From Nesterenkonia sp. LB17 (GTDB lineage: Bacteria > Actinomycetota > Actinomycetes > Actinomycetales > Micrococcaceae), in contig NZ_JAJOYX010000001.1 of the NCBI RefSeq assembly GCF_022565915.1, forward strand, positions 434,001-498,000: 64,000 nucleotides of DNA, given 5' to 3'. Shown piece after piece: positions 7,212 to 55,146 of this stretch. The notes beneath the pieces were generated by a model. It was not told where the DNA came from. It worked only from the letters and a program-made list of their open reading frames with translations, and made no database searches. Position 1 is the first letter of the stretch, and each line of letters starts with the position of its first letter. Both the position numbers and the translations under genes were made by a program.

Positions 7212-9341
7212 ATGACACAGCGCAGCTCGAGCATCTTCTCCGACCTGGACCACTTCGTCACCCATCCTCGCCTCGGCGGTCTCACGCTCAGCCCCGACGG
7301 TTCCCGGCTGGTCACCACCGTCTCCACGGTCAACAGCGCAGGTGATGGCTACACCGGTGCGCTCTGGGAGATCGACCCCAGCGGCGCCCGTCCCGCCCGC
7401 CGGCTCACCCGCAGCCCCAAGGGCGAGGGTGCTCCGGGGTTCTCTGCCACAGGTGATCTCTACTTCACCTCGGACCGCCCGGGGGAGAAGCCCGAGGAGA
7501 AGAGCTCCGCCCTGTACAGGCTCCCCGCGGACGGAGGTGAATCGGTGCTGGTCAGTCGACGCGCCGGTGGCGTGAGTCAGCCGCACTGCGCCCAGCAGGG
7601 GTCCACCATCCTGCTCACCGCGCCGCTGCTCCCCGGGGCCGGCTCCGAGGAGGCTCACGAGCAGCTGCACCGGCAGCGCGAGGAGGCCTCGGTCAAGGCG
7701 ATCCTGCACACCGGATACCCGATCCGCTTCTGGGACCACGATCTCGGCCCGGCCCGCCCGAGCCTGTTCGCCCTGGAGTCCACGGCCGACGCCGCGGCCC
7801 TCCCCACGGATTCCGAGCAGGCCAGCCTTCGCCCCCTCACTGAGGGTCTCGGAGCTCGCTTCGGCGGAGACGTGAAGGTCAGCCCGGATGGCACCGTCGC
7901 GCTGATCAGCGTCGTCGTGCCCGAAGTCCGGGCCGGTCAGCGCACCGCTCTGGCGGTGGTGGACACCGCCACCGGTGAGCGTCGGATCATCGCGGACGAA
8001 CCCGGGTACACCTTCAGCGCCGGGGGGATCAGCCCCGATGGGCTTAGCGCCGCCGTCGTGCGCTCTGCCCAGCCGACGCCGCAGCGAGCCCCGCAGCCGC
8101 AGCTGCACCTTCTGGACCTGCACACCGGCGCGCTGACCCGGCTCGCCGAGGACGCTGACCTGTGGCTCACCCCCGCGGCCTGGCTGCCGGACGGCTCAGG
8201 ACTGCTCGCGCTGGCCGACCAGGGCGGACGCGGTCCGGTCTTCCGCGTGGACGCCACCAGCGGTGCGGTGGAGCAGGTCACCACCGAGGACGCCACCTAC
8301 TCCGCCGTCGTCGTGGCCCCTGACGGTCACACCGCCTACGGGATGCGCTCCAGCTACGCCTTCCCTGAGGAGGTGGTCTCGATCGACCTGAGCACGGGGG
8401 AGGCCGCGCGGCTGCAGAATCCCCATGTGCGTCCGGAGCTGCCCGGCACGCTGACCGAGGTCACCACCACCGGGGCCGACGGTGCGCCGGTGCGGGCCTG
8501 GCTTGCGCTTCCCGCCTCCGCCTCGACGGAGCAGCCGGCACCGCTGCTGCTCTGGATCCACGGCGGGCCGCTGAACTCCTGGAACGCCTGGACCTGGCGG
8601 TGGAACCCCTGGCTGATGGTGGAGCAGGGCTACGCGGTGCTGCTGCCCGACCCGGCGCTGTCCACCGGTTATGGGCAGAACTTCATCCAGCGCGGCTGGA
8701 ACTCCTGGGGAGGACATCCCTTCACCGATCTGATGGCGATCACCGACGCCACCGAGGCGCGGAAGGACATCGACCCGACGCGCACCGCCGCGATGGGCGG
8801 CTCCTTCGGCGGGTACATGGCGAACTGGATCGCCGGGCAGACCGACCGATTCTCCGCGATCGTCACCCATGCCTCGCTGTGGGCGCTGGATCAGTTCGGC
8901 CCCACCACGGACTTGGCCTCGTACTGGCGCAACGAGCTCGATGAGCGGATGGCCGCGGAGCACTCACCGCATCTGCATGTGGAGAAGATCGTGACCCCGA
9001 TGCTGGTCATCCATGGCGACAAGGACTACCGGGTGCCGATCGGGGAGGGGCTGCGGCTCTGGTACGAGCTGCTCGCGAAATCGGGGCTGCCGGCGGATGA
9101 GGACGGACACAGCGCACACCGGTTCCTCTACTTCCCCGACGAGAACCACTGGGTGCTCAGTCCTGCGCACGCGAAGATCTGGTACCAGGTGGTCTCGGGC
9201 TTCCTCGCCGAGCATCTGCTGGGCGAGGCGGCCGCGCTGCCGGAGGAGCTGGGACTCACCGCGCCGGCCGCGGACCAGCAGCCCGTCCGCGGGCATCTGG
9301 GGTCTCCCGCGGGACGCGCAGCCGCATCCGTCGCTTCCTGA
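7212..9341 (+). CDS. S9 family serine peptidase (acylaminoacyl-peptidase/prolyl oligopeptidase type)
   Basis: 709 aa, probably cytoplasmic (no signal peptide), cleaving short peptides or acylated peptides. Residues ~1-410 have beta-propeller-like repeats (LTLSPDGSRL, VKVSPDGTVALIS, VVVAPDGHTAYG). The alpha/beta-hydrolase domain follows, with oxyanion region WIHGGPLNSW, nucleophile GGSFGGY (Ser ~531), Asp in HGDKDYRVP (~605) and His in DENHWVL (~646): a complete catalytic triad. Divergent from tag. Convergent with the acylphosphatase gene, 55 bp apart. Confidence 0.93.
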   Translation: MTQRSSSIFSDLDHFVTHPRLGGLTLSPDGSRLVTTVSTVNSAGDGYTGALWEIDPSGARPARRLTRSPKGEGAPGFSATGDLYFTSDRPGEKPEEKSSALYRLPADGGESVLVSRRAGGVSQPHCAQQGSTILLTAPLLPGAGSEEAHEQLHRQREEASVKAILHTGYPIRFWDHDLGPARPSLFALESTADAAALPTDSEQASLRPLTEGLGARFGGDVKVSPDGTVALISVVVPEVRAGQRTALAVVDTATGERRIIADEPGYTFSAGGISPDGLSAAVVRSAQPTPQRAPQPQLHLLDLHTGALTRLAEDADLWLTPAAWLPDGSGLLALADQGGRGPVFRVDATSGAVEQVTTEDATYSAVVVAPDGHTAYGMRSSYAFPEEVVSIDLSTGEAARLQNPHVRPELPGTLTEVTTTGADGAPVRAWLALPASASTEQPAPLLLWIHGGPLNSWNAWTWRWNPWLMVEQGYAVLLPDPALSTGYGQNFIQRGWNSWGGHPFTDLMAITDATEARKDIDPTRTAAMGGSFGGYMANWIAGQTDRFSAIVTHASLWALDQFGPTTDLASYWRNELDERMAAEHSPHLHVEKIVTPMLVIHGDKDYRVPIGEGLRLWYELLAKSGLPADEDGHSAHRFLYFPDENHWVLSPAHAKIWYQVVSGFLAEHLLGEAAALPEELGLTAPAADQQPVRGHLGSPAGRAAASVAS

Positions 9342-48960: not shown

Positions 48961-49602
48961 GTGAGACTGATCGGTGCCGGAACCCAGGATGGTTTCGAGT
49001 ACACCATGCGCGAGACGTTCTGGACCGCGCCTAACATCGTGACCGTGCTGCGGGCCCTGCTGATCCCCGTGTTCGTCTGGCTCGTGGCGCAGGACCAGTA
49101 CATGGCTGCGTTCTGGGTGCTGGTCGTCCTCTCCAGCACTGACTGGATCGACGGGTACATCGCCCGACGCTTCGATCAGATGTCCACGGTGGGCCAGTGG
49201 CTGGATCCGTTGGCGGACCGGCTCGCACTGATCACCGTCAGCGCCACCCTGGCCACCTTCGGCATCGTGCCGATCTGGGTCGTGCTCGCCGTGGTCATCC
49301 CCGACCTGATCCTCTCGGTCAACACCTATCTGCTCTTCAAGGGACCGCCTCCGCTGAAGGTCACGCTGCTGGGCAAGCTGCGCACCGCGTGCCTGCTGAT
49401 CGGGCTGCCGCTGGCCCTGCTGGGTTCCACCGGGATGCTGCGCGAGGGCCTCATTCCTGACATCGCCTTCGTGCTGCTGGCGCTCGGCGCGGCGATGCAT
49501 ATCATTGCTTCAATCGACTACTTCATCAAGGCCCGCCGCGAGGCGGCGCGGCTGCGCGGCGCACAGGCCCGCCCGGACACCGAGGAGGATTCGACCGCCT
49601 GA
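48961..49602 (+). CDS. CDP-alcohol phosphatidyltransferase
   Basis: 213 aa integral membrane enzyme that transfers a phosphatidyl group from CDP-diacylglycerol to an alcohol. The CDP-OH-P signature is complete: D61, D64-G65, A68-R69, G78, D82 and D86 (DWIDGYIARR...GQWLDPLAD). About five to six TM helices. Products may be phosphatidylglycerophosphate, cardiolipin or phosphatidylinositol phosphate; sequence alone does not decide. Start at GTG 48961 rather than ATG 49006 is supported by a TAAACT six nt upstream. One-base overlap with the following glycosyltransferase gene. Confidence 0.9.
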   Translation: MRLIGAGTQDGFEYTMRETFWTAPNIVTVLRALLIPVFVWLVAQDQYMAAFWVLVVLSSTDWIDGYIARRFDQMSTVGQWLDPLADRLALITVSATLATFGIVPIWVVLAVVIPDLILSVNTYLLFKGPPPLKVTLLGKLRTACLLIGLPLALLGSTGMLREGLIPDIAFVLLALGAAMHIIASIDYFIKARREAARLRGAQARPDTEEDSTA

Positions 49603-50900
49603 TGATGAACCACGTGCCCGCCGATGCTCGCCGTGATGAGCCGGGGGAGAAGTCTGCCGGGGAGCCCGCAGAGAAGCCCGCAGAGATGCCTGAGGTGAAC
49701 CCCGATGAGCACCCCGGTGGGAAGCTCAGGATCCTGATCGCCGCCGACACGTACCCGCCCGACGTCAACGGCGCGGCGGTCTTCAGCCACCGGCTGGCGA
49801 AGAACATGGCGGCCCGCGGTCATGAGGTCCACATCGCTGCCGCGAGGACCAGCCGCGGCCCTGACATGGTCGAACACACCGACGAGGCCACCGTGCACCG
49901 GTTCCGGTCATTCAAGGCCCCGACCCACGAGTACATCCGGCTCTGCCTGCCCTGGCTGGTGGAGCCCGCCATGGGGCGGCTGATGGACGAGCTGCAGCCC
50001 GACGTCGTCCATGTCCAGTGCCACTACATGATCGGCAAGGCTGCGATCGATGCCGCCGCCGAACGCGGTCTGCGCACCATCGCGACCAATCACTTCATGC
50101 CCGAGAACCTGGACCCGTTCCTGCCCTTCCCTGCCTGGTTCCGCCGGATCGTGGCGAAGAACTCCTGGCGGGACATGGGCAAGCTGATGGGCAAGGCCGC
50201 CGTGGTGACCACCCCGACCCCGCTGGCGGCGCGGACCATGATGGAGCGGGCAGGATTCAAGAAGGTGCTCCCGCTCTCCAACGGGATCGACGTCGAGAAC
50301 TACCGGCTGCGTCGCGGTGAGGTGCTGACCCCGCCCGAGAGGCCCACGGTGCTCTTCGTGGGCCGTCTGGCCGTGGAGAAGAACGTGGATGTGCTCATCG
50401 ACGCGATCGGCAAGACCGATCCGGGGCTGGGGATCGGACTGGACATCGTCGGCGACGGCGAGCAGCGCGATCGTCTCGCCGCACAGATCCAGGAGCTGGG
50501 CCTGGACGATCGAGTGCGGATGCGCGGCCATGTCGACGAGGACGCGCTGCGCCGCGCCTACCTCGAAGCCGATGTCTTCTGCCAGCCCGGGACCGCTGAG
50601 CTGCAGTCGCTGGTCTCCCTGGAAGCCATGTCAGCCGGGCTTCCCGTGGTGCTCGCCGACGCTCTGGCGCTGCCGCACCTGGTGGAGGAGGGGGTCAACG
50701 GCTACCTCTTCGAGCCCGGGAACTCCGCACATCTGGCGGCACGGTTGGAGCAGCTGTTCACGATGAGCCCGGAACAGCGCACCGCGATGGGGGAGCGCAG
50801 TCGGGAGCGGGCGGGCCGGCACAGCCTCAACACCACGATGAACGCCTTCGAGAAGCTCTACCGCGGCGCGGACTGGATCGAGAGCAAGCACCCGCAGTAG
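49602..50900 (+). CDS. GT4 glycosyltransferase (membrane glycolipid type)
   Basis: 432 aa. A ~40-residue Glu/Pro-rich N-terminus precedes the GT-B fold: LIAADTYPPDVNGAAVFSHR (typical of MgtA/PimB/diacylglycerol glucosyltransferases), VVHVQCHYMIGKAAI, TNHFMPENLDPF, LPLSNGID, VLFVGRLAVEKNVDVLIDA, and the EX7E motif in AELQSLVSLEAMSAGLPVV. Starts in the stop of the phosphatidyltransferase gene, which suggests a role in glycosylating a lipid product. Acceptor and sugar unresolved. Confidence 0.88.
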   Translation: MMNHVPADARRDEPGEKSAGEPAEKPAEMPEVNPDEHPGGKLRILIAADTYPPDVNGAAVFSHRLAKNMAARGHEVHIAAARTSRGPDMVEHTDEATVHRFRSFKAPTHEYIRLCLPWLVEPAMGRLMDELQPDVVHVQCHYMIGKAAIDAAAERGLRTIATNHFMPENLDPFLPFPAWFRRIVAKNSWRDMGKLMGKAAVVTTPTPLAARTMMERAGFKKVLPLSNGIDVENYRLRRGEVLTPPERPTVLFVGRLAVEKNVDVLIDAIGKTDPGLGIGLDIVGDGEQRDRLAAQIQELGLDDRVRMRGHVDEDALRRAYLEADVFCQPGTAELQSLVSLEAMSAGLPVVLADALALPHLVEEGVNGYLFEPGNSAHLAARLEQLFTMSPEQRTAMGERSRERAGRHSLNTTMNAFEKLYRGADWIESKHPQ

Positions 50901-52484: not shown

Positions 52485-52871
52485 TCAGAGCTGAACCCTG
52501 ACCGACGCGCGGGCCCGGGGGTGCTCCTCGGCCTGCACCTCCAGCGCCGTGAGCCCATGGTCGGCGGGGAGTCCCGCGACCAGCTTCTCGGCGATGTGCT
52601 CGATGATCACCTCGGTGGTGGTGAACTTCTCGGCGAGCTCGGTCACCTCGTCGAGGTTCTTATAGCGCAGCGGCTCCAGCGTGGCGGCGAGCAGCTCGGT
52701 GGCGGCCCCGATGTCCAGGACCACGCCGTACTCGTTGAGGCTCTCGCGGAAGAAGCTGGCCTCGATGCTCAGCGTGGCGCCATGGAGGTTCTGCGCCGGT
52801 CCGAAGAACGGGTCCTTCAGGCTGTGCGCGATCATGATGTGGTCATCGACGGTCAGGCGGAATCGGCTCAT
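52485..52871 (-). CDS. 6-pyruvoyl-tetrahydropterin synthase/QueD-like protein with altered active site
   Basis: 128 aa, the length of PTPS/QueD tunnelling-fold enzymes. The N-terminal IAHSL keeps one Zn-ligand His. The next motif is NLHGATLSIEA where canonical enzymes have (C)xxLHGHNY: one metal His is Ala and the catalytic Cys region (GPAQN) lacks Cys. The FTTTEVIIEHIAEKL segment matches the conserved PTxE helix. Canonical activity is therefore doubtful. Lies 48 bp after the BchC-like dehydrogenase gene on the same strand, likely an operon. Confidence 0.8.
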   Translation of the reverse strand: MSRFRLTVDDHIMIAHSLKDPFFGPAQNLHGATLSIEASFFRESLNEYGVVLDIGAATELLAATLEPLRYKNLDEVTELAEKFTTTEVIIEHIAEKLVAGLPADHGLTALEVQAEEHPRARASVRVQL

Positions 52872-52919
52872 GGCTCTCCTAGGTGGTGGTGGTGGATGGG
52901 AATCGTCGCTGCGCGAGCC

Positions 52920-53987
52920 TCACCCGAAGGCGTAGTGCGCGGCGAGCGGGTGATCGATCACGTGCAGGATCTGCTCCCGGGTCCAGGGCGCACCGGTGGC
53001 GACGTCCTGCATCACGGCAGGCAGCTCGGCCAGCGGCGAGTGCCCGCTGATCAGCATGTCGAAGCGGGAGTCGAGCAGGCCTAAGGCCGTGGCGAGACGC
53101 TGGCCGCGGGTGCGGCGCATCCGCCGTGGGCCGGACACCTGACCGACCTGGGTCGCGACGATGCGAAGCCGGCGGGCATGGAAGTCGGCACCCAGCGGGA
53201 TCTGCTGATCTCCGGTGCCGTACCAGGACTGCTCCACGACCACGGCGTCGTCACCGGCCAGACGCAGTGCGGTGGCGAGCCCTGAGGAGCTGGCCGAGCT
53301 GTGCAGGACCACATCGTTGTCGAGTCCAGCCTCCTCGGGGGTGACGGCGTCCAGGCCCAGGGATTCGATGAAGGCTCGCCGCTCGGCGTCGATCTCCACG
53401 ACCTGCAGACGCTGCAGCGCCGTCTTCGAGGCCAGCAGCGCCGTGGTCAGCCCGATCAGACCGCCGCCGACGACGGCGACCCGGTCGCCGACCATCACGG
53501 GCCCCTCCCAGAGGCCGTTGAGTCCCACCTCGCCGATCCCGGCGAGCAGCGCCCGCTGCGGGGGGCAGTCTTCGGGGAGCACGTGGGCGGCGGACTCGGG
53601 GACGACGACATGTTCGCGGTGCCCGGCCAGGGTGAAGACCGTCCGCCCGATCAGCGCTTCGCTGCCCTGCCGGACCACCCCGACGTTGAGATAGCCGTGC
53701 GAGACCGGGAAGGGCAGCTCGCCGAGCTGGAAGGGGGCCTGCATGACTTCGGTGATGTTCGCGGGCACCTCGCCGCGGTGGACCAGCGACTCGGTGCCGC
53801 GGGAGATGCCGCTGTGCAGGGTCTCGATCAGCAGCTCGCCGGGGCGGGGCGACGGGAGTGGGACATCGCGCAGCGCCCCTGTGTCGGCGGACTCCGTCCA
53901 ATATTGGCGAGAGGTTTCGGGAGTCTGGCCGTGGCCCTGGACATCCGCGCTGACACCGGTGAAACGCAACTCGCTCATGACACTCAT
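52920..53987 (-). CDS. BchC-like medium-chain dehydrogenase (zinc-binding family, Zn ligands absent)
   Basis: About 355 aa MDR protein. The N-terminal domain has LHSGISRGTESLVHRGEVP; the GIS(R/T)GTE motif resembles BchC-type dehydrogenases and lacks the Cys of classic CGxCGTD zinc alcohol dehydrogenases. The nucleotide-binding motif is VAVVGGGLIGLTTALLASK, followed by VVEIDAERRAFIESLG. No four-Cys structural lobe. Start is ATG 53987 or 53978 (no Shine-Dalgarno at either). Upstream of the pterin-synthase-like gene and divergent from a GT4 gene. Confidence 0.8.
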   Translation of the reverse strand: MSVMSELRFTGVSADVQGHGQTPETSRQYWTESADTGALRDVPLPSPRPGELLIETLHSGISRGTESLVHRGEVPANITEVMQAPFQLGELPFPVSHGYLNVGVVRQGSEALIGRTVFTLAGHREHVVVPESAAHVLPEDCPPQRALLAGIGEVGLNGLWEGPVMVGDRVAVVGGGLIGLTTALLASKTALQRLQVVEIDAERRAFIESLGLDAVTPEEAGLDNDVVLHSSASSSGLATALRLAGDDAVVVEQSWYGTGDQQIPLGADFHARRLRIVATQVGQVSGPRRMRRTRGQRLATALGLLDSRFDMLISGHSPLAELPAVMQDVATGAPWTREQILHVIDHPLAAHYAFG

Positions 53988-54042
53988 CATGCCAGAGCCG
54001 TCCACTCCGTCGCCCCGTCGACGGCTGTGCCAGAATCGGCAT

Positions 54043-55146
54043 GTGCTGAAGCTCTTCTTCGACTGCCGGTACACCCGGACCCAGGTCCACGACGGCATCT
54101 CCAGGTTCACCGCCTCCCTGGTGGAGGCGGCCGCCGAACAGGCCGATGTCACCATGCTGATCAGCGATCCGCAGCAGCTGAACCTGCTCCCAGCCCTTCC
54201 TCATCTGCAGATCTCCTCGCCGACCTCGGCTCGGGAGCCCTGGGTCGCCCGGCAGATCAATCCGCACCGCCCAGACGTGGTGTTCTCCCCGATGCAGACC
54301 ATGGGGGGACGGGGCCGGAACTACCCGCTGATCCTCACCCTGCACGACCTGATCTATTACGCACACCGCACCCCGCCGCGGGATCTGCCCGCACTGGTGC
54401 GCCTCGGCTGGCGGGCCTACCACCTCTCCTATCTGCCTCAGCGGCTGGTGCTGAACCAGGCCGACGCCGTTGCGACCGTCTCCGAGACCACCCGCGGGCT
54501 GATCCGCCGGCACCGGCTCACCCGCAGGCCGGTGGAGCTGATCTCCAATGCTCCGCCCGCGGTCGAGTGCCCCCGCGAACCGGGCGCGGCGCCGACGAAG
54601 GAGCTCATCTATATGGGGTCCTTCATGGGGTACAAGAACGTCGAATCCGTCATCGCGGGCCTGAACCGGCTGCCCGGATACACCCTGCACCTGTGCAGCC
54701 CGATCCAGGCCGCCCGCGAGGCGCAGCTCCGCACCCTTGCGGCCGACCCTGAACAGCTGGTCTTCCACCACGGGATCTCCGACGCCGACTATCGCACCCT
54801 GCTGCGGCGGGCCAGCGCATTGGTGACGCTCTCCCAGGCGGAGGGCTACGGTCTGCCCGTGGTGGAGGCGATGGCCCATGGCACGCCCTGCGTGGTCTCC
54901 GACCTGCCGATCTTCCGCGAGATCGGGGGAGCGGCGATGGCGGAGGCCGGCACCCAGGTGGTCCCCGGGCAGGATGCTGAAGCCCTAGCCCAGGCGGTGC
55001 GCCGACTTCAGGACCCTGCCACCTTCGCCCGCGCCTCGATCGCGGCCCGGGCGCGAAGCCAGGAGTTCTCCTGGGCGGACTCGGCTTCAGCGCTGGTCGC
55101 GCTGGGGGAGCGCCTCGCCGGGCACGGGCGGGCGGCCCGGCGCTGA
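54043..55146 (+). CDS. GT4 glycosyltransferase
   Basis: 367 aa. Begins at GTG 54043 (LKLFFDCRYTRTQVHDGISR), the N-terminal pattern of RfaB/mannosyltransferase-like GT4 proteins where 'HDGISR' forms the acceptor loop. Then VFSPMQTMGGRG, LTLHDLIYYAHRTPPRD, VATVSETTRGLIRR, ELIYMGSFMGYKNVESVIA and the EX7E motif in SQAEGYGLPVVEAMAHGTP. Divergent from the BchC-like/PTPS-like pair with about 55 bp between starts; CAGAAT six nt before GTG resembles the leaderless -10 pattern. Substrate unknown. Confidence 0.87.
   Translation: MLKLFFDCRYTRTQVHDGISRFTASLVEAAAEQADVTMLISDPQQLNLLPALPHLQISSPTSAREPWVARQINPHRPDVVFSPMQTMGGRGRNYPLILTLHDLIYYAHRTPPRDLPALVRLGWRAYHLSYLPQRLVLNQADAVATVSETTRGLIRRHRLTRRPVELISNAPPAVECPREPGAAPTKELIYMGSFMGYKNVESVIAGLNRLPGYTLHLCSPIQAAREAQLRTLAADPEQLVFHHGISDADYRTLLRRASALVTLSQAEGYGLPVVEAMAHGTPCVVSDLPIFREIGGAAMAEAGTQVVPGQDAEALAQAVRRLQDPATFARASIAARARSQEFSWADSASALVALGERLAGHGRAARR

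Follow-up and report, generated by a model that had tools for sequence, protein, structure and literature searches.

A widespread bacterial gene set centred on a PTPS-like protein and a BchC-like dehydrogenase, and its split form in Nesterenkonia sp. LB17

The DNA analysed here, called the window below, is a stretch of 64,000 nucleotides (G000:C1:434001-498000) from the 2.8 Mb genome of Nesterenkonia sp. LB17. Two of three genes flagged in it are members of a gene set that is widespread in bacteria and that probably makes a sugar-bearing small molecule from GTP; they encode a tunnelling-fold (T-fold) protein resembling 6-pyruvoyl-tetrahydropterin synthase (PTPS) and QueD, and a medium-chain dehydrogenase/reductase (MDR). 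The window carries only a portion of this set, which is split in this genome; more of it is located on another contig. The third flagged gene, for a glycosyltransferase of family 4 (GT4), very probably does not encode the glycosyltransferase of the pathway and is read as a fixed chromosomal neighbour. All three open reading frames (ORFs) were confirmed at the positions given in the initial annotation, with the GT4 gene divergent:

52485-52871, minus strand: 128 aa, SCO6650-type PTPS/QueD-fold protein
52920-53978, minus strand: 352 aa, BchC-like MDR dehydrogenase, predicted pathway partner of the PTPS-like protein
54043-55146, plus strand: GTG start, 367 aa, GT4 with an EX7E motif (P0003), probably a bystander

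The PTPS-like and MDR genes share a strand and are separated by a 48 bp gap, P0003 starts 64 bp past the MDR start on the opposite strand, and a tRNA-Met gene is found just past the PTPS-like gene. By the PTPS-like protein, the nearest named relatives are Nesterenkonia species (91% identity). For each of the three genes, dN/dS computed with our own NG86 script against the three nearest relatives was 0.10-0.16, so these are not chance ORFs.

The constancy of the pair is apparent from 100 loci picked by the PTPS-like protein alone, around which twelve families were mapped with profiles built from annotated plasmid loci; family names derive from Pfam and NCBIfam scans of representatives and from the plasmid annotation. 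The loci come from four phyla (Actinomycetota, Pseudomonadota, Bacteroidota and, through one Akkermansiaceae metagenome-assembled genome (MAG), Verrucomicrobiota) and include close relatives as well as two loci from one genome (G416); 8 of 57 places in Actinomycetes, 2 of 22 in Pseudomonadota and 12 of 20 plasmid matches were left unmapped. The MDR gene is located directly upstream of the PTPS-like gene on the same strand in 97 of the 100 loci, "directly upstream" meaning a match that starts 800-1600 bp before the PTPS match, and is found farther upstream at L144 and L158. The canonical GT4 of the set lies directly downstream of the PTPS-like gene in 88 loci, the other 12 being the window, L002-L006, L024, L026, L027, L173, L178 and L179. 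Within 11 kb and at more than 80 bits, the definition of "near" used here, a GT4 was counted in 96 loci, but for the window clade this figure takes in an unrelated downstream GT4 (84-89 bits); the count by adjacency is therefore the one relied on.

By the same definition, the pair is accompanied by a methyltransferase (71 loci), a CDP-alcohol transferase (62 loci, with the catalytic motif in 60), an LPG-synthase/flippase-like protein (LPG_TM, 55), GTP cyclohydrolase II (GCH2, 54), a RibD_C protein (49), a creatininase (27) and cytochrome b561 (15). The cytochrome-b561-type genes belong to proteobacterial loci (L016, L017, L019-L023, L060, L061, L168-L172, L180). In a Saprospiraceae MAG (L026), one strand carries, in order, the genes for GCH2, RibD_C, MDR, PTPS and CDP-alcohol transferase, followed by an ORF whose homologue at L027 is a Pfam glycosyltransferase. 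By their conserved neighbourhood, the MDR and PTPS-like genes are a linked module and the constant core of an uncharacterised pathway, in which a glycosyltransferase also appears to act. The initial annotation had proposed that all three window genes form a distinct pathway. The conserved linkage that it had named as a check was borne out strongly for the pair, but the window GT4 is very probably not the glycosyltransferase of the pathway and the set in the window is incomplete.

The plasmid-borne sets at L058 and L061 are close to transposase or recombinase genes, an arrangement that fits horizontal transfer. Three further stretches (L210-L212) were scanned outside the 100 loci. A variant set on a Palleronia plasmid (L212) has the order GCH2-MDR-PTPS-methyltransferase-RibD_C and is surrounded by genes for a GT4, an FkbM methyltransferase, an inositol-monophosphatase-family protein and a PfkB kinase. 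On a plasmid of Streptomyces anthocyanicus (L211), an SCO6650-type PTPS gene (7998-8423, FGSAQ) adjoins a MEKHLA-domain gene and a 14-kb gene, the first 1041 codons of which gave no Pfam match.

The PTPS-like protein matched Pfam PF01242 with 71.6 bits (cut-off 22.4) and is encoded by the single PF01242 gene of the genome, but fell below the cut-offs of the QueD model TIGR03367 (26.7 versus 89.25 bits) and of TIGR00039 (17.9 versus 125.5). In the alignment to canonical PTPS, FGPA26 is opposite FGKC of the worm enzyme 2g64, H30-G-A32 is opposite H-G-H, and R69-Y70 is opposite D-H. We take the FGKC Cys to be the catalytic one, the H-G-H histidines to be zinc ligands, the D-H residues to be the Asp-His pair and H16 to be the first zinc His; E116 is presumably the Glu that anchors the pterin or guanine base. 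The window protein carries the family signature AHS...FGPAQxLHGAT...YxNLD...TTE...E, with H16, H30, A26, Q27 and E116 all in place. Across the 100 loci, H16, H30, A26 and E116 are invariant and Q27 is kept in 99; taken together, the two His, Gln27, Asp53, Glu87 and Glu116 are each kept in 99-100 loci. Position 32 is Ala in 98 loci, Val and Leu in the remaining two and His in none; position 69 varies (Asn 48, Arg 18, Thr 11, Ala 8, Asp 5, others fewer), and position 70 is Tyr in 86 and His in 6. The initial annotation had noted a partial zinc site (NLHGA) and no catalytic Cys, and had left room for these residues at shifted positions. Both the Cys and the third zinc His are missing rather than moved elsewhere, a loss that the whole family shares. 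Identity with QueD or with the PTPS of biopterin synthesis was rejected, both NCBIfam cut-offs being missed and the third zinc His, the Cys and the Asp-His pair being replaced.

The closest solved relative is SCO6650 of S. coelicolor (PDB 3d7j, phmmer 8.8e-24), a member of the same family that has FGPAQ and LHGAT in common with the window protein. An AlphaFold model of the latter (pLDDT 95.3) superimposed on 3d7j with Z 19.9 and rmsd 1.4 over 128 residues at 44% identity. Against canonical PTPS and QueD, Z was about 14-16 (4ntk 15.1, 3i2b 15.8), in agreement with a T-fold; what is shared with those enzymes is this fold, two of the three zinc His and the anchoring Glu, whereas the third His, the Cys and the Asp-His pair are replaced. 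The 2008 structure paper on SCO6650 reportedly found neither zinc in the active site nor a catalytic triad, and the protein showed no activity as a PTPS. The family is well set off by score, its members reaching 146-203 bits, the next match 94 (a fragment at a contig edge) and the rest 85 downward. In the plasmid annotations examined, relatives of SCO6650 are labelled "6-carboxytetrahydropterin synthase", the QueD name. A legend in a review of COG0720 (PMC5041015) shows PTPS groups I to III, and the name SCO6650 does not occur in the main text of that review.

The MDR assignment is supported by its AlphaFold model (pLDDT 91.1), which superimposed on 4oh1 with Z 32.1 and rmsd 2.4 over 295 residues and on 4ej6 with Z 31.8 and rmsd 2.2 over 292. 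The sequence has the nucleotide-binding motif GGGLIG but not the catalytic zinc Cys of zinc alcohol and polyol dehydrogenases: S59 of GISRGTE (SGISRGTES) takes the place of the GICGTD Cys of 4ej6 in the alignment; it is conserved without exception among 28 aligned sequences, and the position is Ser in 98 of 99 loci. The initial annotation had likened this motif to BchC rather than to zinc alcohol dehydrogenases, a reading that agrees with Ser59 in place of Cys and with BchC (bacteriochlorophyllide hydroxyethyl dehydrogenase, TIGR01202) as the best NCBIfam model. The likeness is a loose one, and membership in BchC was rejected, as the score of 41.4 bits is far below the cut-off of 291.25.

Neither the canonical GT4, the methyltransferase nor a strong CDP-alcohol transferase match is found beside the pair in the window. 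A search with the methyltransferase from another Nesterenkonia cluster identified a second locus in the same genome, with four genes in one run:

L188 8212-11846 (G000:C7 about 130211-133845): CDP-alcohol transferase, canonical GT4, methyltransferase and flippase-like protein

The frames at this locus are open, its GT4 scores 321 bits against the canonical profile, and a ROK-family gene adjoins it. In the window clade the GT4 and the methyltransferase are both at the second locus, whereas the Streptomyces-like genomes mapped have both beside the pair. The pair was found in 29 Nesterenkonia genomes. In 16 of them the canonical GT4 is at such a second locus and none adjoins the pair; in the other 13 it adjoins the pair, and a second locus was not found, a call that comes from the methyltransferase search alone and that a GT4 located elsewhere without a methyltransferase would escape. 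None of the 29 showed both GT4 sites or neither. One of the 16, G1378 (62% complete), has broken second-locus genes. In the GT4 tree (92 of 108 rows; 14 were thinned, and L194 and L204 were lost at trimming), the beside-pair and second-locus GT4s form separate clades, the latter nearer to the GT4s of a Microbacterium plasmid and of Kocuria. On the MDR and PTPS tree, the GT4 site switches four times, as forced by well supported branches. This repeated exchange of the GT4 between two sites is the strongest sign that the pair needs a GT4.

The likely source of the substrate is indicated by the cyclohydrolases of the set (for example, at L059, L065-L071, L136, L137 and L141-L144). All 54 cluster GCH2s retain the Arg and the three zinc Cys known from E. 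coli GCH2, but Tyr105 (E. coli numbering) is kept in 29 and lost in 25 (Met 14, Leu 6, His 4, Gln 1). A creatininase gene is found near 24 of the 25 Tyr-less GCH2s, the exception being L162, and a strong match near none of the 29 Tyr-bearing ones, two of which (L184 and L185) have weak matches of 104 and 99 bits. The archaeal creatininase-family enzyme ArfB takes the formyl group off, and SCO6655, a GCH2 of the Met type, is said, in work by Spoonamore from 2006, to keep it on its product. The likeness to SCO6655 extends to the 25 cluster GCH2s with Met, Leu, His or Gln for Tyr105; the window's genome has no dedicated copy of this type. The pattern of Tyr105 and creatininase suggests that a deformylated pyrimidine is what the pathway needs. 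In PMC2853524, SCO6655 is listed among genes expressed against predicted riboflavin flux (-0.61), but SCO2687 is listed likewise (-0.52), so no inference on SCO6655 is drawn from it.

We consider it probable, at roughly 0.6, that the MDR and the PTPS-like protein belong to a pathway whose substrate is a pyrimidine or pterin derived from GTP, and that the canonical GT4 glycosylates this compound. The best reading of the sequences has a glycosylated pterin or diaminopyrimidine, perhaps methylated and lipid-linked, as the product of a split pathway from GTP. The linkage, residue conservation, fold, selection and exchange pattern are shown by the comparisons above; the chemistry that follows is inferred. 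GCH2 would open GTP to 2,5-diamino-6-ribosylamino-4(3H)-pyrimidinone 5'-phosphate (APy), directly in enzymes with Tyr105 and, in Tyr-less ones, by way of a formyl compound and a creatininase-family deformylase; no dedicated GCH2 was found in the Nesterenkonia genomes searched, so APy there would come from the enzymes of riboflavin synthesis. Many species have a RibD_C reductase that would next yield the ribityl form, and the zinc-less MDR may act on a side-chain hydroxyl. The PTPS-like T-fold protein may bind the base through the Glu that holds the 2-amino-4-oxo pyrimidine and promote the next step, which most simply would be dihydropterin closure once the MDR has made a 2'-ketone; taken alone, this ring closure is a tentative proposal and less likely than not. 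Decoration of the product would fall to the GT4 and, where present, the methyltransferase; attachment to a phospholipid may be the task of the CDP-alcohol transferase. A small hint from elsewhere concerns SCO6652, which would be the methyltransferase by gene counting from SCO6650 to SCO6655: in PMC3610822 its log2 values are 4.3 and 4.1 in the second mycelium at 48 and 72 h versus the first mycelium. The set as a whole can be likened to that for the pterin glycosides cyanopterin and limipterin of cyanobacteria and green sulfur bacteria, where a PTPS-family enzyme, a reductase and a glycosyltransferase also work on a pterin. Those routes begin with GTP cyclohydrolase I and a canonical PTPS, whereas the present set goes with GCH2 and, in many loci, with genes for a methyltransferase, a CDP-alcohol transferase and a flippase-like protein.

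Several observations weigh against this reading. The pterin or pyrimidine nature of the substrate is read from neighbouring genes and one Glu. A single GCH2 gene, located in the riboflavin region, is present in the window's genome, where cluster-type RibD_C and creatininase genes were not found, so the link to GTP is indirect there. The pairing of Tyr105 loss with creatininase is explained by one or two events on the GCH2 tree, which has E. coli as its sole outside row and is silent on separate recruitment of GCH2 by clusters; with one or two origins possible, the 25 cases are not independent. The cluster creatininase tested scored higher with the model for MftE of mycofactocin synthesis (141 bits) than with that for the ArfB deformylase (37 bits), below both cut-offs. 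Oxidation of a polyol by the MDR is uncertain, as the usual zinc ligand is missing from it. No MDR gene is found beside the PTPS gene at L187, and no MDR match in the L211 stretch. Among the second loci, L191 and L202 show a GT4 and methyltransferase only, with no CDP-alcohol transferase or flippase-like gene, and the methyltransferase was found nowhere (E 1e-8) in 8 of the 29 Nesterenkonia genomes, all among the 13 without a second locus; the constant members are therefore only the MDR, the PTPS-like protein and the GT4.

That the three window genes, P0003 included, are the pathway is highly improbable, even though P0003 is under purifying selection and 29 of 30 Nesterenkonia genomes have it together with the pair, either adjoining it or with one CDP-alcohol transferase gene between, and the thirtieth (82% complete) has neither. 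P0003 homologues were found in 18 of the 394 genomes of the class sample, assumed to be the same sample as in the PTPS search (equal size, and handles agree where shown). Sixteen of these are outside Nesterenkonia (49-58% identity) and none has the homologue beside the pair: 12 gave no match for an SCO6650-type PTPS at E 1e-30, 3 have this PTPS on another contig and 1 at a distance of 287 kb. The claim that this GT4 belongs with the pair failed on these 16 genomes, and P0003 was rejected as the pathway glycosyltransferase. It scores 47 bits against the canonical GT4 profile and gives only short matches to the canonical GT4 of its own genome; moreover, it is present wherever the canonical GT4 sits, beside the pair or at the second locus, and is therefore no replacement for it. 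A further CDP-alcohol-transferase-like ORF (213 aa) and a GT4-like ORF (432 aa) occupy window positions 48961-50900 on the plus strand; their matches to the pathway families are weak (29 and 76 bits), and they have counterparts in several Nesterenkonia loci. With no canonical GT4, methyltransferase or strong CDP-alcohol transferase match beside it, the window pair might also be a decaying remnant of a pathway lost in the clade. This is extremely improbable and was rejected, given the open frames for all three at the second locus and the purifying selection; apart from G1378 and an MDR that is split in L007/L226, no broken copies were seen in relatives.

It is rather unlikely that the product is a flavin, lumazine or deazaflavin whose ribityl chain has been modified by the PTPS-like protein and the MDR. 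The riboflavin-type enzymes near many loci (GCH2 and RibD_C in the numbers given above) would suit it, and the cluster RibD_C protein scored 115 bits with the RibD C-terminal model and 101 with the archaeal diamino-ribosylamino-pyrimidinone phosphate reductase, below both cut-offs; an F420-dependent oxidoreductase gene is located near L059. However, lumazine synthase, riboflavin synthase and F420-synthesis genes are not among the annotated neighbours of the plasmid loci, for which the gene table is incomplete, and the characterised PTPS-fold enzymes act on pterins. It is quite improbable that the PTPS-like protein is instead a non-enzyme, a ligand-binding or scaffold subunit of the MDR. Such a role would accord with the adjacency of the two genes in 97 loci and with the window protein, in which one zinc His and each of the three catalytic residues of PTPS are replaced, but the near-invariance of the two His, Gln27, Asp53, Glu87 and Glu116 seems to exceed what holding a base would need.

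A bolder form of the glycosylated pterin or pyrimidine pathway, in which the full set yields a membrane lipid that carries a pterin or diaminopyrimidine as its head group and whose base comes from GTP without GTP cyclohydrolase I, is unlikely. GCH2, the RibD_C reductase, the MDR and the re-purposed PTPS fold would build the base. The CDP-alcohol transferase would link it to a phospholipid, and it would be glycosylated, methylated and moved by the flippase-like protein; as cytochrome b561 adjoins in several proteobacteria, the lipid might be a membrane-bound redox carrier. This proposal is weakened by the 8 of 29 Nesterenkonia genomes without a methyltransferase and the two second loci without a CDP-alcohol transferase.

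In the literature found, neither the pathway nor the gene set is described. The structure of SCO6650 was already known, and one cyclohydrolase has reportedly been assayed; to these the window adds a split variant with an exchanged second locus. The SCO6650 structure has been in the PDB since 2008, and the protein is not known to catalyse a reaction. The gene set offers a likely substrate source (GTP via APy), tailoring enzymes and a logic for the Tyr-less cyclohydrolase and its creatininase. Nesterenkonia provides a natural experiment, in which the glycosyltransferase was swapped several times between two places, tying it to the pair. The PTPS marker was found in 56 of the 394 genomes sampled from Actinomycetes, 22 of the 349 from Pseudomonadota and 2 of the 247 from Bacteroidota, so the product, were it to be identified, would count as a metabolite common among bacteria.

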